DNA from: Burkholderiales bacterium
GTDB taxonomy: Bacteria > Pseudomonadota > Gammaproteobacteria > Burkholderiales > JABEVD01
Length of the DNA stretch: 39,334 nucleotides
Direction of reading: 5' to 3'
Assembly: GCA_013044025.1 (NCBI GenBank)
Contig: JABEVD010000018.1
Location: 1 to 39,334, forward strand
A program made the position numbers and the translations under genes. How positions within the stretch are numbered: the stretch's first letter is position 1; the number at the start of each line of letters is the position of its first letter. The notes under the pieces were generated by a model that was not told the origin of the DNA, did no database searches, and worked only from the letters and a program-made list of their open reading frames with translations. This document shows positions 971 through 11,884 of the stretch, piece by piece.

Positions 971-2383
971 TCAACAGGGCAGCGAGAGGCGAAAGGATAC
1001 TTCGCCTCGCGGGGAATCCAGGAGGACGAGATCCCCGCCATGGGCTCTTGCGATCTCGCGGGCGAGACTCAGCCCGAGCCCCACCCCGTCCACGTTGCGA
1101 CTGCGGGACGCATCCGTGCGATAGAAGCGCTCGAAGATCTTTTCCCTGGATTCCGGCGCGATGCCGGATGAGGAATTGGATATCTCGACCTGGACGACTT
1201 GCTCCGTTCTTTCCAGTCCGATCCGGATCCATCCGTTTTGCAGATTGTATTTCACCGCGTTGGAAACAAGATTGACGAGGAGCTGGCGCATCAGATCGGC
1301 ATCTGCCCGGATCGTGATTCCTTCCGGCAGTTTCACGGAGACCAGGAGCGCAGGAGCCATCATCCTGGTGTCCTCGACAAGCTCCTCAACCTCACGGGAA
1401 AGATCGAATGGCGTAAGCTGAAGGCGCAGCCTGCCCGCATCCGCCTGGGAAAGCAGCAGCAGCTTGCGCGAAATGGAGGATAAGCGTCTGGCCTCGTCCA
1501 GGATGCTGCCCAGCATCGCCTGCATGGGGGAGCCCGCCTCAACCTGGGAGATTGCCCGCTCGATCTGCCCCTGCAAAATGGTGAGTGGCGTCTTCAATTC
1601 GTGGGAAGCGTCCGCCGAAAAGCGCGAAGCCTGGGTGAAGCTCTTCTCCAGCCGCTCCAGCATCTCGTTGATTCCTTCAGCGAGCACAGCGAATTCCCGG
1701 TCCCGGATCACGGGAAGCCTCTGATCGAGCTTCTGGGCCGAAATCCCGCGGATCGATTGACCGAGTTCCCGCACTGGCTTGAGCGCCCTTCCCGAGAGAA
1801 ACCAGGCGCCCAAGGCGAGGAAGGCGAGCGCAGCCGGGGCGGCCAGCAAAAATCCGTTCCTCACCCTGTCCATTCCCAACCTCATTTCGTCCATGCCGAC
1901 CGCGATCGCGATCCGGGAATGAGGGGTTGCGGCTAGCCCGAATCTCCAGGTGGTGCCGTTCGCGCTCGCCTCATATTTCGCGGTTGCCGGCGGGATCCTG
2001 GGAGGAGGCCTGGAAAAATCCGGAGGCCATGGAGGAAGCTTCGCTTTCGGCCAGGGAAGCTTCGAAGAATCGATCCCGGCAGGCCAATTCCCTGATTCAA
2101 AAACAATCTCGCCGAAACGATTTTCCACCAGCAGCAGGACATGGGCGGGCTCGCGAATTCCGAGCGAGCGGGGCAGGACGTTTTCCGCGAACCGGGCCCA
2201 TTCCGGAGGGGGCAGGAAGCGCATCGATTCCCGCTCCGCGCTCGAGATCAGGTCGGAGTCGATGTCCGCGACCTTGATGTCGTGGACCACCCACCATGCG
2301 TATGCGCCGAATCCGGCCAGAACGGCCCCGGAAAGCGCGGCTGCGAGCAGGGCGAGCCGGATGCGGAAGGATCCCGACTTCAA
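971..2383 (-). CDS. two-component sensor histidine kinase
   Basis: Membrane sensor kinase, about 470 residues, partner of the regulator just upstream. Domains in order: TM1 at about 10-32; a periplasmic sensor of about 140 residues unusually rich in Pro and Trp (segments such as LPWPKAKLPPWPP); TM2 at about 178-198; HAMP; a dimerisation/phosphoacceptor helix with DASHELKTPLT (His about 261); and an ATPase domain with the N box (LVSNAVKYN), DGVGLGLSLA and related G boxes. I place the start at the TTG at 2383-2381, whose last two bases overlap the regulator's TGA (TTGA), with AAGGA just upstream. A frame-open extension to a TTG at 2452 exists but would lie inside the regulator gene. The layout resembles CusS/QseC-type kinases, but the signal cannot be inferred. 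The likely target is the divergent operon starting at 3205. Confidence 0.9.
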   Translation of the reverse strand: MKSGSFRIRLALLAAALSGAVLAGFGAYAWWVVHDIKVADIDSDLISSAERESMRFLPPPEWARFAENVLPRSLGIREPAHVLLLVENRFGEIVFESGNWPAGIDSSKLPWPKAKLPPWPPDFSRPPPRIPPATAKYEASANGTTWRFGLAATPHSRIAIAVGMDEMRLGMDRVRNGFLLAAPAALAFLALGAWFLSGRALKPVRELGQSIRGISAQKLDQRLPVIRDREFAVLAEGINEMLERLEKSFTQASRFSADASHELKTPLTILQGQIERAISQVEAGSPMQAMLGSILDEARRLSSISRKLLLLSQADAGRLRLQLTPFDLSREVEELVEDTRMMAPALLVSVKLPEGITIRADADLMRQLLVNLVSNAVKYNLQNGWIRIGLERTEQVVQVEISNSSSGIAPESREKIFERFYRTDASRSRNVDGVGLGLSLAREIARAHGGDLVLLDSPRGEVSFRLSLPC

Positions 2384-3069
2384 TGTTCCTTGTCCGGATC
2401 GTGATAACGGTAGCCCACGCCGCGAACGCTCTCGATCGGAGATGTTTCGCAACTGGAAATGCCGGCGATCTTTCTGCGGATCCGCTGGATGCAGACGTCG
2501 ACCAGATTGGTGCTGGGATCGAAATCGTATCCCCAGACATGTTCCAGGATCTGGGTTCGGGTGAATACCCTTCCGGGGGAACGCATCAGGTATTCGATCA
2601 GATTGAATTCCCTTCCGGTCAGATCCACCGATTGTCCCGCCCAGGAAGCCTCGCGGCTGATCCTGTCGAGCCTCAGTTCACCCACGCAAAGCAGGTTCTG
2701 CCGCTCCCCTGAAACCCTCCGCAGCATGGCATGAATCCTTGCGATCAATTCCTCCACGAAAAACGGCTTGGCGAGATAATCGTCTGCGCCAAGATTGAGC
2801 CCATCCACCCGGTCATCCAGCTCGTTGCGCGCGGTGAGCAGAATCACCGGGGTGTGGTTCCCGCACCGTCTCAGGCCGGAAAGGATGGAAAGACCGTCCC
2901 TTCCCGGAAGCATGATGTCGAGCACGATTGCATCATATCCTCCTCCTGCTGCGAGCAGGTAACCCTCGTTTCCGTCGCCGCAATGGATGACCGCAATTCC
3001 CCGTTCGCGAAATCCCGCGCACACGAAGTCGGCGATCCTCTGTTCGTCTTCGACCAGCAATATCTTCAT
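2380..3069 (-). CDS. OmpR-family DNA-binding response regulator
   Basis: Protein of 229 residues. The receiver domain (1-115) has the acidic pocket (LLVEDEQ), phospho-acceptor Asp51 (VLDIMLPGRDG), the conserved Thr region (LLTA) and Lys101 (YLAKPF). A C-terminal winged-helix trans_reg_C domain (about 130-225) has the typical LTGREFNLIEYL and RVRGVGYRY-like end (SVRGVGYRYHDP). It is the first gene of a two-gene unit with the overlapping sensor kinase (TTGA). Its ATG at 3069 faces the urea transporter/M23 operon across about 135 bp. That gap contains a palindrome suited to an OmpR-type dimer, so it probably autoregulates and controls the divergent operon. This is inference from position. Confidence 0.93.
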   Translation of the reverse strand: MKILLVEDEQRIADFVCAGFRERGIAVIHCGDGNEGYLLAAGGGYDAIVLDIMLPGRDGLSILSGLRRCGNHTPVILLTARNELDDRVDGLNLGADDYLAKPFFVEELIARIHAMLRRVSGERQNLLCVGELRLDRISREASWAGQSVDLTGREFNLIEYLMRSPGRVFTRTQILEHVWGYDFDPSTNLVDVCIQRIRRKIAGISSCETSPIESVRGVGYRYHDPDKEH

Positions 3070-3204: not shown

Positions 3205-5379
3205 ATGAAGATCCTGAAGCATCACCCCGAAAGGCTTTTCGAAGAACTCCAGCGCGGATACGCATGGGTGGCGCTCCTTCCGTCCCGGAAAGCAGGAATT
3301 CCGCTGGCTCTGTTGACCTTTCTCGATCCCGGATCCGGATTTTCGGGACTGTTCGCTGCGATCTGCGCATGGTATGCCGGGGAAATCGCCGGCGCTGACG
3401 AGGCGGAAAGGCCTGTCTGCGTTTTCAACGGCCTGCTGGTCGGCCTTTTCGTCGGGCATGTCTGGGTTGCAGGATACGGCACGGCAGCGATTTCCCTGCT
3501 CGGCGGGATATTTTCAGGATGGCTCACCGTGGTGCTCGGCCGCCTCGCCGCTTCGCTCGTCCGGCTTCCCGTCCTGAGTCTTCCTTTCACAATCGTTTCC
3601 ATGTTGACCCTGGCAGCGGGGAGCAGCCTGTCTTCCCTGCAGGCGAACCCCTATCATGCCCCGCCTGAGCTTTTCGGCATGAAAGCCGATCATTTCCTCG
3701 CCGCGCTGGGTAACCTCTACTTCATATCCAATCCTGCATACGGAATCCTGGTGATCGCGGTGATTACCTATTTCTCAAGGTATTACATCTTCCTCGCGAT
3801 CGCGGGATATGCCGCCGCCTCCATCTGGCTGAGTTTCCTGGGGGCCGCACCGGAGCACCTCGCCCCCACCGCATGGGACAGCAATGCCATCCTCGCTTCG
3901 ATCCTGGTGGGGGGGCTCCTTTCCTCTCCGTCCCTGCGAACCGCTGCGCTGGCCGTGCTCGCGGCGCTCTTCGCGGCCTGGCTCTCCTTATCCTTCGGCA
4001 GGATCCTGGATTTCGCCCATCTCCTGCCTTTTTCCTCCCCTTTCGTGATCTCTTCCTGGATCGTGCTGTATGCAGTTTTGCGCAACAACAGGATGTCGGC
4101 CAGTTTCAATCTTCTCCTCCCCGATTTTCCGGAACGCTCGCTGGAGCGGGCGCAACTCAGCCTCGCCCGCCTTTGCGAGGCTGGAAGTGTCGCCCTTGCC
4201 GTGCCATTTTCCGGTGAATGGACGGTCTCCCAGGGATTCTCCGGTCAGCACACCCATCGCGGACCGTGGCGCCATGCGCTTGATTTTGTCCTGCTGAAGG
4301 ATGGGCTCAGTTTTTCTGGCAAAGGGAACAGGCTGGAGGATTTTCACTGCTACAACCAGCCGGTCTATTCGCCCTGTTACGGCCAGGTTTGGCGCGTGGT
4401 GAACGACGTTCCGGACAATGAACCCGGCAAGGTCAATATGGATGCGAACTGGGGAAACCATATCCTGCTGCGCGTGCCCGGAGGAAAGCATGTCTTGCTC
4501 GCCCATCTCAGGCCATGGTCCATCGTCCCGGCGCCCGGGTCCTGGGTGAAGCCAGGGGACTTCATCGGTCATTGCGGAAATTCCGGCCGATCACCGCAAC
4601 CCCATCTTCATCTCCATCTCCAGGAAGGGGAAATGATTGGTGCGCCGACTTCCCCCTTCCATCTGGCGAGCGTGCTGATCTCGGAAAATGGAAAGCCACC
4701 ACGCTACGAGCTTTCCGTCGTGCCTGTTCAATCTGCGAGGATTTCCGCTGCGATTTCCGGGGAGGTCAGACCCTTCCATCTATTCGCAGGAAGGGGAATC
4801 CGCTACAGGGTGAGCCGGAACGGCGAACCCGTTGGGGATTGGTCGCTCTTTTGCATGGTGGACGATCTCGGCAGGATGGTCCTGGTCTCGAGCGAAGGGG
4901 GGCGCTCGGTGGCGGAATCGACCTGGGCGGTGTTTTCCTGCTACGAGAGGAACGAGAAATCCGACCTTTTCCTCGACCTCTGGCTCCTCGCCTGCGCCTA
5001 CTCTCCCGCATCCTTCCAGATCGAGCGCTGGGAGGACCGCGCGACTCCGGCGAGACTCCTGCCAATCCGGCTTGCGAAATTCCTTGCCTGCCTGATCTGG
5101 CCATGGATGACCTTCATCGAAAGCCGTCACCTCCGAAAATGGGACGACGAGTCCCAGGGATGGCGCCAGATTGCGGAGCACAGGCAAAGGCATTCCGGAA
5201 TCGGCGCGAAGACCGAGGCGCTCATCCTCCCCCAGAAAGGTTGCACCTTCGTCGGCGCCGAATCGGGGGGAAATCGCTACGCCATGCAGGCAACCAGCCT
5301 CTTCCAGCTCGCAGATGTCGGCGTGCCATCTTGGGAAGAGGAAATCAGAATGTCCAACTTACCAGGAAAATTGCAATGA
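3205..5379 (+). CDS. urea transporter domain fused to M23 metallopeptidase domain
   Basis: Two-part protein, 724 residues from ATG 3205 (a GTG at 3184 would add 7). Residues 1 to about 293 are a polytopic UT-family urea channel with two repeats. Its signature-like sequences are LPVLSLPF (121-128) and LPFSSPF (274-280), and DPGSGFSGLFAA resembles a pore-lining start. Residues about 330-485 form an M23 (LytM/lysostaphin-like) domain with HALDF (His357, Asp360), AHLR (His434) and PHLHLHL (467-471), which are the expected Zn and catalytic positions. The first motif is HxxD rather than the usual HxxxD. The last 240 residues are unassigned, with a weak hydrophobic segment (FLACLIWPWMTF). It is first in a six-gene operon, and its stop overlaps the next ATG. 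UT channels normally end in the cytoplasm, so the location of the peptidase is unclear. Confidence 0.85.
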   Translation: MKILKHHPERLFEELQRGYAWVALLPSRKAGIPLALLTFLDPGSGFSGLFAAICAWYAGEIAGADEAERPVCVFNGLLVGLFVGHVWVAGYGTAAISLLGGIFSGWLTVVLGRLAASLVRLPVLSLPFTIVSMLTLAAGSSLSSLQANPYHAPPELFGMKADHFLAALGNLYFISNPAYGILVIAVITYFSRYYIFLAIAGYAAASIWLSFLGAAPEHLAPTAWDSNAILASILVGGLLSSPSLRTAALAVLAALFAAWLSLSFGRILDFAHLLPFSSPFVISSWIVLYAVLRNNRMSASFNLLLPDFPERSLERAQLSLARLCEAGSVALAVPFSGEWTVSQGFSGQHTHRGPWRHALDFVLLKDGLSFSGKGNRLEDFHCYNQPVYSPCYGQVWRVVNDVPDNEPGKVNMDANWGNHILLRVPGGKHVLLAHLRPWSIVPAPGSWVKPGDFIGHCGNSGRSPQPHLHLHLQEGEMIGAPTSPFHLASVLISENGKPPRYELSVVPVQSARISAAISGEVRPFHLFAGRGIRYRVSRNGEPVGDWSLFCMVDDLGRMVLVSSEGGRSVAESTWAVFSCYERNEKSDLFLDLWLLACAYSPASFQIERWEDRATPARLLPIRLAKFLACLIWPWMTFIESRHLRKWDDESQGWRQIAEHRQRHSGIGAKTEALILPQKGCTFVGAESGGNRYAMQATSLFQLADVGVPSWEEEIRMSNLPGKLQ

Positions 5380-6254
5380 AAATGAAACTTGCCGGTCCGC
5401 TCCTGCTGACCCTCATGAGCATGGGAAAGGCGGAAGCTTCCTCATGGCTCTTCGACGCGAACCCGAGCCTGACCCAGGGAACCTACAGCGGTTCGATTGA
5501 GAGAAGCTCTCTCACGGACAGGGGAATCAAGGTCTCAGCGAGCTATCTCGACCAGGGAGCAATCACCGCCGGCTACAGCCGAACCCTTGTCGCAATGAAG
5601 ACCGCGCCGACAATCGATCAGGACAACTGGCTGCTGTCCGGACACTTCAACCGCTATCTGGATTCAGGCCATGGCAGACTGAGCTTTCGTCTGGACGGAT
5701 ACCGCCTCAACAACAACGACTTTGTCGGACAAACCGGCGGAGTCACCACCATCGCCCCGCAGGTTTCCTGGCTTTCGAACGACGGCATGCTGTATGCAGA
5801 CCTCGGGTACGCCCGCTCCGGCTACCAGAATGCGCTCACTGTCCAGCAATACACACCGACCGCCGGATTCGGCCTGAACGGCGGCAACGACTGGATCCAG
5901 TTTCGCGCATTCCTGATCCGCGGCCTCAATCCCCTGCGTGCCGAAGGAAAATCCGCCACCACCGGGGCGGATGCGAAATGGACTCACTATTTCGCAGCGG
6001 GTTCCCCGCTCAAGCCATCCTCTGTCTCGCTCGGGATTTCTCTGGGCGAGAAGATTTATGCTGTGGACATGGACGCCATGTCGGTCGCAAATCTCGCCGA
6101 CCTGCAGCGGGGCGGGGAAACGGTTGGCCTCGGCTGGAAGATCTCCAGAGACGCGAAACTGTTCGCACTTGCAGGGCAGATGCGCTACACCAACACCCAG
6201 ATCGCCAACGATTACAGGCTCAATGTCGGCTATGTCGACCTTTCTTTCGACTGA
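5376..6254 (+). CDS. predicted outer-membrane beta-barrel protein (YaiO-like)
   Basis: Protein of 292 residues starting at ATG 5376, with AGGA 8 nt upstream and a 4-nt overlap with the fusion gene's stop. A signal peptide (MKMKLAGPLLLTLMSMGKAEA) is followed by repeated amphipathic strands alternating aromatic and polar residues (ASYLDQGAITAGYSR, GRLSFRLDGYRL, LYADLGYARSGY). The chain ends YVDLSFD. There are no Cys and many Gly, Asn and Tyr residues, typical of a bacterial outer-membrane barrel. The C-terminal half looks like the YaiO family, though I am not certain. With the TPR protein that follows it resembles a split YaiO or exopolysaccharide-export pair. Probable role: outer-membrane passage or anchoring for this system. 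Confidence 0.7.
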   Translation: MKMKLAGPLLLTLMSMGKAEASSWLFDANPSLTQGTYSGSIERSSLTDRGIKVSASYLDQGAITAGYSRTLVAMKTAPTIDQDNWLLSGHFNRYLDSGHGRLSFRLDGYRLNNNDFVGQTGGVTTIAPQVSWLSNDGMLYADLGYARSGYQNALTVQQYTPTAGFGLNGGNDWIQFRAFLIRGLNPLRAEGKSATTGADAKWTHYFAAGSPLKPSSVSLGISLGEKIYAVDMDAMSVANLADLQRGGETVGLGWKISRDAKLFALAGQMRYTNTQIANDYRLNVGYVDLSFD

Positions 6255-6265
6255 TAAAGGAGAAA

Positions 6266-6883
6266 ATGATGCACGGAAGACTCAAGGCCGCAGTTCTGGT
6301 CCTCGTCATGATGTCGGGAACCGCTTTCGCAGGGGTAGAAGACTGGCAGAATTCCTATCGTCTGGAAAGGGAAGGCAAATATGCGGACGCTCTCGGCGCG
6401 ATCGCTCCGGTTCCGGCCAACGGGCCGGATGCCGAACTCAAGACGCTGCGCCGCGGCTGGCTGTATTACCTGACAGGAAGCTACAATGAATCGATCCGGG
6501 AATACCGCTACGCGGTGGAGAGAAACCCCCACTCCATCGACGCGCTTCTGGGCGAAACCCTTCCCCTCCTTGCGCAAAAGCGCTGGAGGGCAGCCGAACA
6601 GGTTTCGAAGGATGCGCTCGCGATTTCTCCCAACCATTACACCGCCCTGTTGAGGCTTTCCCAGGCCCTGGAAGGGGAGCGTAACTGGCCCGGCATGGAG
6701 CAGGCCGCTTCCTCCCTGGCCAATCACTATCCTTCGGATGCGACCGCCTTCCTTTACCTCGCCAGGGCCCATGCATGGCAGGGGCATAACGCTGAGGCAG
6801 CCGCGGCCTATCGCGCTGTGCTCGTCCGTTATCCGGATCAGGCTGAAGCCGCCTCCTTTCTTTCCGGAATGAACGGAAAATGA
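6266..6883 (+). CDS. secreted tetratricopeptide-repeat protein
   Basis: Protein of 205 residues. The signal peptide (KAAVLVLVMMSGTAFA, cleavage after AFA) directs it to the periplasm. The mature part is about five TPR-like helical pairs (for example GWLYYLTGSYNESIREYRYA and LYLARAHAWQGHNAEAAAAY). The strong ribosome site AAAGGAG lies just before tandem ATG codons at 6266 and 6269, and spacing favours the second. It follows the barrel gene by 11 nt, and its stop overlaps the decarboxylase start (ATGA). It is presumably a periplasmic scaffold for the barrel or for the M23 domain. TPR-barrel partnerships are common in envelope export systems, but no partner can be proven here. Confidence 0.75.
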   Translation: MMHGRLKAAVLVLVMMSGTAFAGVEDWQNSYRLEREGKYADALGAIAPVPANGPDAELKTLRRGWLYYLTGSYNESIREYRYAVERNPHSIDALLGETLPLLAQKRWRAAEQVSKDALAISPNHYTALLRLSQALEGERNWPGMEQAASSLANHYPSDATAFLYLARAHAWQGHNAEAAAAYRAVLVRYPDQAEAASFLSGMNGK

Positions 6884-9513
6884 ATCGATTCGATCTCAGG
6901 CAGCGGCGCGACGAACTGTGGGAATCCCTCGAGGCATCGGCCAATGCCTCCGCCTTCGATCTCGAAGACTTCTCCCGTTCGCTCAAAGAACTTTATGCTG
7001 TCGACAGGTTCTGGACTTTTCCCGGAAGAGGCGTGCTGTGGCGGCTTACGCATTACCTCGATGAGATGCAGTACACGCTGATCGCACAGCTCGTGAACAA
7101 TTGCCGGCATTACATGATGCAGGATCGCTACCGCTTCCAGGCCTTCAGTCCCTTCATGACCAATCTGGAATGGCTGGACCGCCCGATGCTGCACGAATCA
7201 GGGAACATGGAAGCGCTGTCCATCCACAAGCCCAGGCCCTATTTCGAGGTGCTGATCGTCCATCCCTGTCCTGACGAATACGAGTTGCTCTATCGCCAGC
7301 ATCTCGCGACCTTCAAATCCCCGCATGACGAATTCATCTACGACATCGTCCTGGTCGATTCGGCCGAGGATGCGCTCACCGCAGTGCTCGCCAATACGGA
7401 CATCCAGGCCTGCATCCATCTGCACCATGTCCCGCCCGGCACCGAAACTTCGGCGCCTCTGTTTGAGCGCTTCACCCGCCCCCAGCTTCTCCACACGCTC
7501 CCGGTGAATTATTCCGAAAGCGTGGAAGTCAATCTGTGCAGGACCATGCGCGCGATCCGACCGGAAATCGACCATTACCTCATCAGCGAGCTGCCCGCAT
7601 CCGAGCTGCCCTTTTCCGTCCGCAACCATTTCGACAGGGTGCTGTTCCATGTCAATCCTTTCCGGGATCTGCACGAAGCGATCATGAACGGCGTGAGAAA
7701 CCGCTTCAGCACCCCGTTTTTCGCTGCGCTTCAGGCCTATGGAAGGCAACCGAAAGGGGTTTTCCATGCCCTGCCTCTTTCCCGCGGCGCCTCGGTCAGA
7801 AATTCTCCGTGGATCCGCGACATGTACGACTATTACGGGGAAAGCGTATTCCGGGTAGAAACCTCCTCTACCCAGGGAGGACTGGATTCTCTGCTCGATC
7901 CGACCGGCGCGATCCTGCAGGCGCACATGAAGGCGGCCGAAGCATTCGGGGCGGATTCCACCTTTTTCGTCACCAACGGTACTTCCACCTCGAACAAGAT
8001 CGTCAATCAGGCGAATCTCCGCCCGGGCGACATCGTGCTGATTTCCGCGGACTGCCACAAGTCGATCCCCTATTCGGTGATGCTGGCAGGCGCATTTCCA
8101 GTTTTCCTGGAGACATGGCCGATCCCTTCCCGCGACCTCTACGGAGGGGTGGAGCTTGCCAGAATCAAGGAAGTGATGCTCGATTTGAAAAAATGCGGTC
8201 GCCTGGAGAAGCTCAGACAAATTTCCCTCACCAGTTCCACTTTCGACGGGCTGATCTATCACTGCGAAAAATTCATGATGGAAATCCTCGCCATCAAGCC
8301 AGACGTCATTTTCCACTGGGACGAGGCGTGGTCGGCCTTTTGCGGGTTCCATCCCCTCTATTACGGACGGACCGCGATGTCCGCTTCGAAAAAGATCCGG
8401 CAAAGGATGCAAGATCCCGCCTACCGGGAATTTCATTCGCAATGGCGAAAGGAATTCGACGCCAACCCGGAAGAAGAGAAATGGGATGGGCCACTCTATC
8501 CGCATCCAGATCTCGTGAAGCTCAGAGTGTATTCGACGCAGTCGACCCACAAGACGCTCTCCGCTTTCCGCCAGGCATCGATGATCCATGTCTCCGACGA
8601 TCTTTTCGATCGGGCGAGTTTCGTCGAGGCCTATCGCATCTACACGTCCACTTCTCCCAATTACCAGATCGTCTCCTCGATGGACATCGCGCGCAGACAG
8701 GCTTCCCTGGAGGGATTTTACCGGGTCAGGGAAGCGATCCTGCTTTCGCTGCAATTGAGGAGAAGGATACGCGAGGAGGAATCCCTGAAACCCTGCTTCG
8801 AACTGCTGACTGACTTGGAAATGGTGCCGGAGCGATTCAGGACTCCTGTGGGGGAAGGAGAGGGGCTGGCCGGATTGTGCTCCGAATGGGGATACTCCGA
8901 TTTCGTGGTCGACCCCACCCGAATCACCCTCGACGTGAGCGGCTGCGGCATCGACGGGAATAATTTCCGCCAGCTCCTGATGAGCCGCTACGACATCCAG
9001 GTCAACAAGACTTCGCGCAACACCGTGCTGTTTCTCGTCAACATCGGCGCAACCCGGGCCACGGTGGATTACCTTTTCCAGGTGCTGATGGAACTGGCAG
9101 CGAGATTCAGGATGGAGCGCAGGCACCACGAGCTGCCGATTTTCAGGGAATCGCTCCCGCCCCTTCCCCGGAAAAGAATCTTCCACCCGGCATTCCTTCC
9201 CTTCGAAGGCGGCGAGGATCCACCCTGCGACATCCGTAGCGCCCATTACCTCGGCGCCGAAGAATATACAACGGAATATCTACCGCCCCCGGAAGCGCTC
9301 GAAGCGGGCAGGGCGGGAGAATTGCAGGTATCTGCAAGCTTCGTCACCCCTTATCCGCCGGGATTCCCGGTACTCGTCCCCGGACAGTTCATCACGCCCG
9401 AAATCCTCGAATATTTCCATCATGCCAGAATTCCGGAAATCCACGGATTCAGTTTCGAAAAGGGATTCAGGGTGTTCCGCAAGGATTATCTCGAACAAGG
9501 AAACCGGAAATGA
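6880..9513 (+). CDS. Orn/Lys/Arg-type PLP decarboxylase, enlarged
   Basis: Fold-type I basic amino-acid decarboxylase of 877 residues. It is expected to convert ornithine, lysine or arginine to putrescine, cadaverine or agmatine plus CO2. Visible motifs: FVTNGTSTSNKIV (PLP phosphate region), ISADCHKS, HWDEAW (Asp for the pyridine N), and STQSTHKTL with the Schiff-base Lys at 558. The C-terminal domain has FVTPYPPGFPVLVPGQ. Family members are usually 710-780 residues with the PLP Lys near 370-390. Here about 170-190 extra residues precede it, made of an all-helical N-terminus (1-110) plus about 45 residues inserted between HWDEAW and the Lys. Substrate cannot be read from sequence. It overlaps the preceding and following genes by 4 nt. 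Confidence 0.9.
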   Translation: MNRFDLRQRRDELWESLEASANASAFDLEDFSRSLKELYAVDRFWTFPGRGVLWRLTHYLDEMQYTLIAQLVNNCRHYMMQDRYRFQAFSPFMTNLEWLDRPMLHESGNMEALSIHKPRPYFEVLIVHPCPDEYELLYRQHLATFKSPHDEFIYDIVLVDSAEDALTAVLANTDIQACIHLHHVPPGTETSAPLFERFTRPQLLHTLPVNYSESVEVNLCRTMRAIRPEIDHYLISELPASELPFSVRNHFDRVLFHVNPFRDLHEAIMNGVRNRFSTPFFAALQAYGRQPKGVFHALPLSRGASVRNSPWIRDMYDYYGESVFRVETSSTQGGLDSLLDPTGAILQAHMKAAEAFGADSTFFVTNGTSTSNKIVNQANLRPGDIVLISADCHKSIPYSVMLAGAFPVFLETWPIPSRDLYGGVELARIKEVMLDLKKCGRLEKLRQISLTSSTFDGLIYHCEKFMMEILAIKPDVIFHWDEAWSAFCGFHPLYYGRTAMSASKKIRQRMQDPAYREFHSQWRKEFDANPEEEKWDGPLYPHPDLVKLRVYSTQSTHKTLSAFRQASMIHVSDDLFDRASFVEAYRIYTSTSPNYQIVSSMDIARRQASLEGFYRVREAILLSLQLRRRIREEESLKPCFELLTDLEMVPERFRTPVGEGEGLAGLCSEWGYSDFVVDPTRITLDVSGCGIDGNNFRQLLMSRYDIQVNKTSRNTVLFLVNIGATRATVDYLFQVLMELAARFRMERRHHELPIFRESLPPLPRKRIFHPAFLPFEGGEDPPCDIRSAHYLGAEEYTTEYLPPPEALEAGRAGELQVSASFVTPYPPGFPVLVPGQFITPEILEYFHHARIPEIHGFSFEKGFRVFRKDYLEQGNRK

Positions 9514-10973
9514 CCAAAATTCTTCGCTCCCTGTCGGACATACGCAATCACTTCTCGCAGAACGAAATTCCCCATTATTTCATCAGCGCTAGCAACTTCA
9601 ACATGATGGGCATGCACGAATGGGTGAAAGGCTGGAAGAACGTCACCCTGATCGACAGCTTCGACGGAAAACATCCACATCTGCATGCGGTCCCTTCCAG
9701 GAAGGCTTTCGACAGCATCCAGGAAATCGATCTGCATTTGCTGCAGAACGGGCCATTCGCATCCCTCCAGGGAGAACGCAAAGGTCGGGCGATTTTCCTG
9801 TTTTTCGACGAGGAGGTGGAAGCGCTCTGCGAAAGGCTGGGCCTCGAAATTCTGCTCCCCCCTCACCGGCTGGTGCACGAGATGGACAGCAAGATCGTCA
9901 CCACGGAAATCGGCAATCAGGCCGGGGTGAAGAGCGTTCCCAACGTGCTGGCCAAAGTGGGCTGTTTCGAGGAGCTCGAAAGAGTCGCCTCCGGTCTGGG
10001 AAGAGATTGGGTAGTGCAATCCGCTTATGGGGATTCCGGGAAAACCACCTTTTTCATTTCAGACAGAGGGGACTTCGACGAGGCTGCATCCCGGATCGCG
10101 AAGGAGGAAAAGGTCAAGGTGATGCGCCGCATCTCCTGCACCGGCACCGCGATCGAGGCCTGCGCCACGCGCTGGGGGACTTTCGTCGGTCCGCTCATGA
10201 CAGAACTCATCGGCGTTCCGCAACTGACCCCCTATCCCGGGGGGTGGTGCGGAAACGAACTGTACGAATCCGCTTTCTCCCCGGAAATACGCAGACTCGT
10301 GCTGGAAAAGACCAGGGCGATGGGAGATGCGCTGTACCGAAGGGGCTACCGTGGATATTTCGAACTGGATTTCCTCATCGATCGCGGTGACGGGGAAGTA
10401 TATCTTGGCGAACTCAATTCCAGGATCACCGGAATTAGCGCCATGACCAATCTTTCCGATTTCTGTACGGAAAACATCCCTCTTTTCCTTTTTCACCTCC
10501 TCGAATTCGACCGGGAAGTTGAACTGGAAATCGATGCGGACGCCTTCAATGAGGCCGTGCTTCACGCCGGAGCCTCCGGAGTCTCCTCTCAGGCGATCCT
10601 GAAATACACCGACGAATCCCTGAAAATCGTTACTTCCGCTCCACAATCCGTGGTCTATTCCATGGACGATGCGGGCAGGATGGTCTTCAGGAAAGCGGGT
10701 TGGCATCGTCGGGACGCGCTCGGCGAGGACGAAGCGTATCTCCTTCGCATCATGGAGCCGGGGGAATATGTCTATGAGGGGGCGGATCTCGCCATCCTGT
10801 TCCTGAACCGGGTGATCGGAAACGGAGAGGGCGGACTGAACCTGCATGGGGAGAAATGGATTTCCGCACTGCAAGAATCCTTCGAATACAGGAATCTCCG
10901 TCAGGAAGAGCGATCCCTGGTCGAATTCATCAACCATCCGGCCGGCATCAAGAGCGGGGGAAGAAGATCGTGA
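9510..10973 (+). CDS. ATP-grasp family ligase (carboxylate-amine/biotin-carboxylase-like)
   Basis: Protein of 487 residues. An N-terminal pre-ATP-grasp domain (about 1-120) is followed by an ATP-grasp fold. WVVQSAYGDSGKTTFF (167-182) is the nucleotide-binding loop, ELDF (285-288) and ELNSRITG (301-308) are the Mg/ATP acidic and Asn/Arg residues, and the remaining ~170 residues form a C-terminal extension. Such enzymes activate a carboxylate as acyl phosphate and join it to an amine or thiol. Relatives are often labelled biotin carboxylase, but no biotin-carboxyl-carrier or carboxyltransferase gene is near. Placed between an amine-producing decarboxylase and an acyltransferase, an amide-forming role is the natural inference. 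It overlaps the decarboxylase by 4 nt and the next gene by 1 nt. Confidence 0.8.
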   Translation: MTKILRSLSDIRNHFSQNEIPHYFISASNFNMMGMHEWVKGWKNVTLIDSFDGKHPHLHAVPSRKAFDSIQEIDLHLLQNGPFASLQGERKGRAIFLFFDEEVEALCERLGLEILLPPHRLVHEMDSKIVTTEIGNQAGVKSVPNVLAKVGCFEELERVASGLGRDWVVQSAYGDSGKTTFFISDRGDFDEAASRIAKEEKVKVMRRISCTGTAIEACATRWGTFVGPLMTELIGVPQLTPYPGGWCGNELYESAFSPEIRRLVLEKTRAMGDALYRRGYRGYFELDFLIDRGDGEVYLGELNSRITGISAMTNLSDFCTENIPLFLFHLLEFDREVELEIDADAFNEAVLHAGASGVSSQAILKYTDESLKIVTSAPQSVVYSMDDAGRMVFRKAGWHRRDALGEDEAYLLRIMEPGEYVYEGADLAILFLNRVIGNGEGGLNLHGEKWISALQESFEYRNLRQEERSLVEFINHPAGIKSGGRRS

Positions 10974-11884
10974 TGAAATCATTCCATTCCGTCGAGGAAA
11001 CCTTTCCGGGGAAGAAGTGGCTGGAGCATTTCCATGCGGCGCTTCCCGCCTATCGGAGCTGGTTTGCAAGGGACAGGGAGCGTCCTGGATTGCAGGAATG
11101 CGTGGATGCACTCGAACGGCACATGCCAGAGCTCGTGCCGATCTGGAAACATCTCGTCGCCATTTCGGGCGCTGACGAGAACGATGCCCGAATGCTTACC
11201 TTCTATTGTCCGCCACCAAACCTTTCCGGTTGTTCGCAGGCGGTCTGGACCCGTTATACGCCGACCCTGGTGAGGAATTACGACTATGCGCCTGAGTATT
11301 GCGAAGGCAGGATCATGAAGACTCGCTGGCACAATCAGGAAGTCATCGCCGCAACGGATTGCCTGTGGGGAGTGCTCGACGGAATGAACCAGCACGGACT
11401 TTCGGTTTCCCTCGCTTTCGGCGGGAAGACTTGCGTCACCGAGGGATTCGGCGTCCCTCTCATCCTGCGCTACGTTCTGGAATTCTGCACCGATGTGGAC
11501 GAGGCGGTGAAAGTGCTTTGCCGGGTCCCGGCGCACATGGCCTACAACATCACCCTGCTCGATGCCTTCGGCCAGGTGAGAACGGTCGAGCTCACTCCCT
11601 TTTCCAGGCCGAACGTCACCTACAAGGCGCTCGCGGTCAACCACCAGGGTGATTTCGAGATCACCAATTACGCCATGTTCTCCCGCTCGTTCGAACGACA
11701 GCAGTTCCTGATCGGCAAGCTGACCGATCCCTTGATCAGCATCGAATCCTTCGTCAACGCATTCGAATTCAGGCCGCTCTTTTCCTCGAATTATTCGCAG
11801 GGATTCGGCACGCTGTACACGGCGATCTACAATCCGCGGTTGCGTGCGATGGAATACCGCTGGCCGAATCAGGCCAGGATGTAA
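10973..11884 (+). CDS. C45-family autoproteolytic acyltransferase/hydrolase (Ntn fold)
   Basis: Protein of 303 residues from ATG 10973 (a GTG at 10970 is also possible). It resembles acyl-CoA:6-aminopenicillanate acyltransferase (IAT) and the C45 peptidases. The sequence SGCSQAVWTRYTPTLVRNYDY holds the probable autocatalytic Cys87, followed by the conserved RNYD. The preceding 86 residues would be the cleaved pro-segment. Family members transfer or hydrolyse acyl groups on amines and amides. The TAA at 11882-11884 is followed by 16 in-frame codons (QSFAFFEEYEVLVELR) that look like the usual C-terminus of this family, ending at TGA 11935. The gene may therefore be truncated by a nonsense change, or read through. 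It is last in the operon and convergent with the DUF2059 gene. Confidence 0.8.
   Translation: MKSFHSVEETFPGKKWLEHFHAALPAYRSWFARDRERPGLQECVDALERHMPELVPIWKHLVAISGADENDARMLTFYCPPPNLSGCSQAVWTRYTPTLVRNYDYAPEYCEGRIMKTRWHNQEVIAATDCLWGVLDGMNQHGLSVSLAFGGKTCVTEGFGVPLILRYVLEFCTDVDEAVKVLCRVPAHMAYNITLLDAFGQVRTVELTPFSRPNVTYKALAVNHQGDFEITNYAMFSRSFERQQFLIGKLTDPLISIESFVNAFEFRPLFSSNYSQGFGTLYTAIYNPRLRAMEYRWPNQARM

Follow-up and report, generated by a model that had tools for sequence, protein, structure and literature searches.

A urea transporter-type channel fused to an M23 peptidase domain and its conserved operon in Bacteroidota and Pseudomonadota

Results

The window, which is the whole 39,334-nucleotide stretch of DNA analysed here, encodes a 724-aa protein (3205..5379, forward strand) that carries a urea transporter (UT) domain and an M23 peptidase domain in one chain, and this UT-M23 protein is almost certainly part of a real multi-gene system. 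At all 46 homologous loci it is encoded with a PLP decarboxylase, an ATP-grasp ligase and a periplasmic TPR protein, and in most of them also with a predicted outer-membrane barrel. When 395 Bacteroidota genomes were searched with a decarboxylase profile, 34 genomes matched at E < 1e-100. These were the 33 genomes with the fusion and one more (G067), in which the fusion exists as two adjacent overlapping pieces, with no exceptions (Fisher p 7e-50, uncorrected for phylogeny). The conserved operon is the more important finding, and it was absent from the preliminary description of this DNA, which dealt with the fusion protein. Both domains are known, and their operon setting is apparently new; no paper found in our search, which covered literature readable without subscription, describes the fusion or the operon, and the system is apparently undescribed.

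The fusion is real. The reading frame starts with ATG and has no internal stops, in line with the single open frame noted in the preliminary description, and the domain search proposed there placed both domains above the curated Pfam cut-offs: UT (PF03253) at residues 15-290 with E 5.1e-35 (121.5 bits against a cut-off of 25), and Peptidase_M23 (PF01551) at residues 383-474 with E 3.5e-10 (40.4 bits against 28.7). Full-length relatives from independent assemblies are 82% (G002/L031), 64% (L032) and 59% (G042) identical, and more distant ones occur in an Ignavibacteria MAG (L033, 28%) and a Bacteroidales MAG (L034, 28%). With a genome counted as a carrier if one match spans both UT and M23, full-length fusions were present in 33 of the 395 genomes sampled from Bacteroidota and in 33 of the 398 from Pseudomonadota, about 8% of the sampled genomes in two phyla. 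The samples were evenly drawn around the Bacteroidales MAG and the window's genome and their phylum names are inferred; the name Pseudomonadota rests on the close relative L031, labelled Proteobacteria. In that sample the window's genome is the sole carrier within its own class, the others belonging to other classes. The concern that two genes had been joined by error is refuted by these counts. Chance, a frameshift or an assembly error is excluded by full-length homologues without stops in several phyla, no point in favour of such an artefact was found, and we give this explanation a negligible probability. Three copies contain an in-frame stop or are split between two frames (G067:C1:2246027-2248032, G132:C12:54641-56707 and G540:C28:14046-16178); they are possibly decaying genes or sequencing errors. 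No relative was found in the viral contigs searched.

The UT domain (residues 15-290; 3247..4074, forward strand) has a 10-TM channel fold by homology. A profile of six sequences (A1), compared with the solved UT structures, covers the whole solved fold (8blo, E 9e-48), and residues 9-331 of the dvUT chain 3k3f align with positions 4-313 of the profile. Both repeat halves are matched, which places the protein in the UT family by homology and fold. With the dvUT pore residues numbered after the published structure, the window clade has W/N/S/S at Q24/E187/T130/T294, and Phe27 is replaced by Leu. Across the family, the Thr130 position is Ser in 44 of 46 members, Thr294 is kept in only 4 of 46 (mostly Ala, Val or Ser instead), and Glu187 is replaced by Ala, Ser, Leu, Asn and other residues, and the pore polar residues of a urea-selective UT are thus not preserved. 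A genomic link to urea use, scored by urease, is lacking as well: a strong urease-alpha match was found in 6 of 54 carrier genomes and in none of the remaining 48, and the search of the window's genome gave no strong match. Given this drift in the pore and the lack of a strong urease match in 48 of the 54 carriers, urea is probably not the substrate. The name "urea channel" given in the preliminary description is therefore unsupported as a function, and so is urea uptake coupled to urease.

The M23 domain spans about residues 326-490 (4180..4674, forward strand) and is assigned by its profile score and fold. Structure prediction of residues 300-724 had been proposed earlier; we ran it on residues 326-724, and the AlphaFold2 model of this crop recovers the M23 fold. 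Foldseek matched it to M23 structures with probability 1.00 and E 7e-06, and VIA-align with Z up to 13.6. Most of the M23 core has a pLDDT of 70-93, and the model is usable for that core only. The full-length model from 5 sequences (pLDDT 54) was excluded for the UT domain and the zinc geometry. The closest solved structures to this region are peptidoglycan enzymes or their partners. On the forward strand, H351 (4255-4257), D360 (4282-4284), H434 (4504-4506), H467 (4603-4605) and H469 (4609-4611) are invariant in the alignment of all 46 homologues, which comprises the His, Asp and HxH ligands and the second catalytic His. The zinc site, predicted from this conservation as H-x8-D plus HxH, looks complete. 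An HxxD motif with H357 (4273..4275, forward strand) had earlier been taken as the first zinc motif, with the suggestion that the domain was perhaps a binding module; this reading did not hold up, as 29 of the 46 homologues have His at position 357, 13 have Tyr and 4 another residue, and H351 is the conserved histidine. HxxD is ruled out as a metal motif. Because the five residues are invariant while H357 varies, the domain looks catalytic, as far as can be predicted from the alignment. In most stand-alone M23 relatives a His precedes Q[RK][YFN]Ax[DE] in the same loop, shifted by two or three columns in the alignment; the exceptions are L151 and L165, which have no loop His before it.

Residues 500-724 (4702..5376, forward strand) form the third conserved region of the fusion family. 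This C-terminus of about 225 residues, left unassigned before, is conserved in the family and matched nothing in searches against Pfam and PDB sequences. It gives a weak LolA/RseB-like fold signal, and the likeness to RseB/MucB (VIA-align Z 8.5, from a low-confidence model) is a lead only.

Solved UT proteins have both termini in the cytoplasm. In our family the segment after the last TM averages 6.0 K/R per protein and the loop that joins the two halves 1.9, and the segment has the higher value in 46 of 46 proteins. Because of the full-length UT homology to dvUT and this basic segment, the M23 domain is predicted to be cytoplasmic, and likely is. The topology puzzle raised in the preliminary description is genuine: a peptidoglycan hydrolase would have its catalytic domain outside the cytoplasm, homology and charge predict a cytoplasmic one, and secreted M23 relatives exist. 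Near stand-alone relatives are split, some with signal peptides or lipoboxes and others with a TM segment followed by basic residues; a haloarchaeal relative has TM segments and then basic residues.

Downstream of the fusion gene, on the same strand, five further genes follow with spacings of -4, +11, -4, -4 and -1 bp, which suggests that the window operon is one transcript. The first encodes a predicted outer-membrane beta-barrel protein of 292 aa (5376..6254) and overlaps the UT-M23 gene by ATGA. It has a signal-like N-terminus and related proteins in other loci; the barrel assignment is made from the signal peptide and sequence pattern only, and barrel proteins searched against Pfam and NCBIfam gave no match. 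The periplasmic TPR protein of 205 aa (6266..6883) has a signal-like N-terminus and Pfam TPR hits, and a match to it is present in all 46 loci. When the TPR and barrel proteins were set against known export pairs of the PgaA and AlgK/AlgE type, the searches gave TPR repeats only. These are followed by a fold-type I PLP decarboxylase (OKR_DC_1) of 877 aa (6880..9513; PF01276, E 2.6e-69), an ATP-grasp ligase of 487 aa (9510..10973), which is similar to the "biotin carboxylase" PRK06524 (NF005096, E 1.8e-155, below the curated cut-off), and a C45 autoproteolytic acyltransferase/hydrolase of 303 aa (10973..11884; PF03417, E 1.6e-34; NF040521 above its cut-off). On the reverse strand, divergent from the operon, lies a two-component pair of heavy-metal type (971-3069), which consists of a CzcR/CopR-like response regulator (2380..3069) and its sensor histidine kinase (971..2452). 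The pair is kept in L031 and L032, and the regulator was not found in L035; it is possible that this regulator controls the operon.

Two operon types were distinguished. Type 1, with 40 of the 46 loci, consists of PqqD, ATP-grasp, a LysA-like fold-III PLP decarboxylase, UT-M23 and TPR, and an outer-membrane-type protein was recognised in most of these loci. The best NCBIfam matches of its decarboxylase are lysA (E 1e-66) and the N-citrylornithine decarboxylase FslC (E 7e-65), below the cut-off. Type 2 comprises the window and L031, L032, L035, L126 and L127, and contains UT-M23, TPR, the fold-I OKR decarboxylase, a different ATP-grasp, the C45 acyltransferase and the barrel. The OKR decarboxylase substitutes for the LysA-like enzyme, and the two are unrelated. 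The biosynthetic half of the operon has been exchanged and the envelope half kept; one exchange is enough, because the UT-M23 proteins of the six type 2 loci group in a single clade (SH-aLRT 100).

Some neighbouring features were also recorded. In eight loci (L128-L131, L133-L135 and L137) PqqD is fused behind a TetR-like N-terminal region (258-272 aa); within family f78 most of the Pseudomonadota loci have this fusion, and so does L128, which suggests a pathway-sensing regulator. A conserved protein of about 280 aa with a T9SS-type C-terminal "YPNPFNP" tail is found near the operon in ten Bacteroidota loci (L110-L119). No small ORF within 1.5 kb upstream of PqqD is conserved beyond close pairs, and no RiPP precursor was found there. 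PADLOC, run on 9 proteins, gave no anti-phage defence match.

Discussion

The explanation that we prefer, tentatively, is an export system that handles a decarboxylated amino-acid conjugate, with UT-M23 as its inner-membrane component. Cytoplasmic enzymes would decarboxylate a basic amino acid (Orn/Lys/DAP type) and couple the product by an amide bond. The resulting small molecule would leave via the UT pore, and the M23 domain, on the cytoplasmic side, would trim or release it at the channel mouth or else gate the channel. The TPR protein and the barrel would then take it over the periplasm and outer membrane. That the product is the amide of such a decarboxylated amino acid is suggested by the two decarboxylases, which are unrelated but both of the Orn/Lys/DAP kind, and each of which is accompanied by an ATP-grasp ligase. 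The direction of transport is a guess. Against this explanation count the small solutes to which a UT pore is limited, and the many stand-alone relatives in this M23 clade that carry signal peptides or lipoboxes and work outside the cytoplasm, together with the two partners predicted to be periplasmic or outer-membrane, which a periplasmic M23 domain would fit better.

A periplasmic M23 domain is indeed the central point of the strongest competing account, which we consider rather unlikely. With the UT domain upside down or an extra membrane crossing, the M23 domain would remodel peptidoglycan, the decarboxylase and ligase would make a polyamine-type envelope group, and the TPR protein and barrel would be envelope anchors. 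The signal-like N-termini of both partners agree with it, as do the secretion typical of studied M23 enzymes and seen in several near stand-alone relatives, the peptidoglycan enzymes or partners among the nearest solved structures, and the weak likeness of the C-terminal region to the periplasmic RseB/MucB. It is opposed by the full-length UT homology, which puts both ends on one side (the cytoplasmic one in solved UTs), by the strongly basic stretch that follows the last TM in all 46 proteins, and by the Arg/Lys-rich segments that precede M23 in several membrane-tethered relatives, including the haloarchaeal one.

If the M23 domain is tethered to the channel in the cytoplasm, as predicted, it could also be a non-catalytic gate or sensor, comparable to the IIA domains by which transporters are regulated; M23 and EIIA-Glc have the duplicated hybrid motif fold in common. 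We regard this reading as improbable. Degenerate LytM activators usually lose their catalytic residues, but here all of these are invariant. The chances are slimmer still for a channel for urea or a small amide to which the M23 domain is tethered incidentally or for regulation. The UT homology is clear and proteins of this family conduct urea; however, the diverged pore positions, the scarcity of strong urease matches among carriers and the exact co-occurrence of the fusion with the decarboxylase all speak against it.

On the export explanation, UT-M23 is probably neither a urea-uptake channel nor a peptidoglycan hydrolase. The fuller form of this explanation is more speculative: a trans-envelope system, present in two phyla or more and able to swap its biosynthetic half, in which a repurposed UT channel passes the decarboxylated amino-acid conjugate and a cytoplasmic M23 domain processes it.

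If this is true, a supposedly stand-alone urea channel family has been recruited into a multi-gene system together with a peptidase domain, which sits on the side of the membrane away from the cell wall and is built into a channel. It would also correct annotations made by domain name alone ("urea transporter", "peptidoglycan hydrolase") for a family present in about 8% of the sampled genomes. Through the exact co-occurrence with the decarboxylase the substrate can be approached directly, and with two biosynthetic halves that are interchangeable the prediction can be tested in cultured members of Bacteroidota or Pseudomonadota.

Comparison with known systems

When compared with the UT urea channels (dvUT and mammalian UT-A/UT-B), UT-M23 shares the whole two-fold repeated UT domain (E down to 9e-48) but adds the M23 domain and a third region, has altered polar residues in the pore, and is encoded with a decarboxylase and a ligase, urease being usually absent. 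It has the fold and the full His/Asp/HxH set of the M23/LytM peptidases (Csd1/2, DipM, LytM and ShyA), whereas its first motif is H-x8-D in place of HxxxD, and it is predicted to be cytoplasmic and channel-tethered. The closest M23 sequences are membrane-tethered or secreted proteins of Haladaptatus, Thermus and Bacteroidota, which share the His before Q[RK][YFN]Ax[DE] but have no UT domain, and some of which are secreted. Two M23 proteins from this clade, both membrane-tethered, are encoded at L044:2701-3627, in a haloarchaeon near nitrile hydratase genes, and at L045:2653-3612, on a Thermus plasmid. Haloarchaea have no peptidoglycan. PqqD-containing RiPP clusters likewise have a stand-alone PqqD beside tailoring enzymes; in contrast, no precursor peptide was found here, and the window type is without PqqD.

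Related enzyme modules exist apart from UT-M23. A trio of OKR-like, ATP-grasp and C45 genes, the first assigned by annotation and position only, occurs without UT-M23 beside ABC importers on Roseobacter and Rhizobium plasmids, and in Roseateles the ATP-grasp/C45 pair is next to agmatinase and 2-ketoarginine decarboxylase genes. ATP-grasp and C45 modules on Roseobacter, Roseateles and Rhizobium plasmids (L177, L178 and L179), two of them with a PLP enzyme upstream, adjoin peptide-type ABC transporters or arginine catabolism genes. As hints to the substrate these modules are leads only. A "biotin carboxylase" of Paraburkholderia phymatum, Bphy_7724, is on record (PMC8305402); identity with the window's ATP-grasp is not implied. 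The Roseobacter/Rhizobium plasmid module of OKR decarboxylase, "biotin carboxylase" ATP-grasp and C45 has, by annotation, apparently the same gene kinds in the same order as the window, but it adjoins peptide-type ABC transporters, whereas the window module adjoins the UT-M23, TPR and barrel genes.
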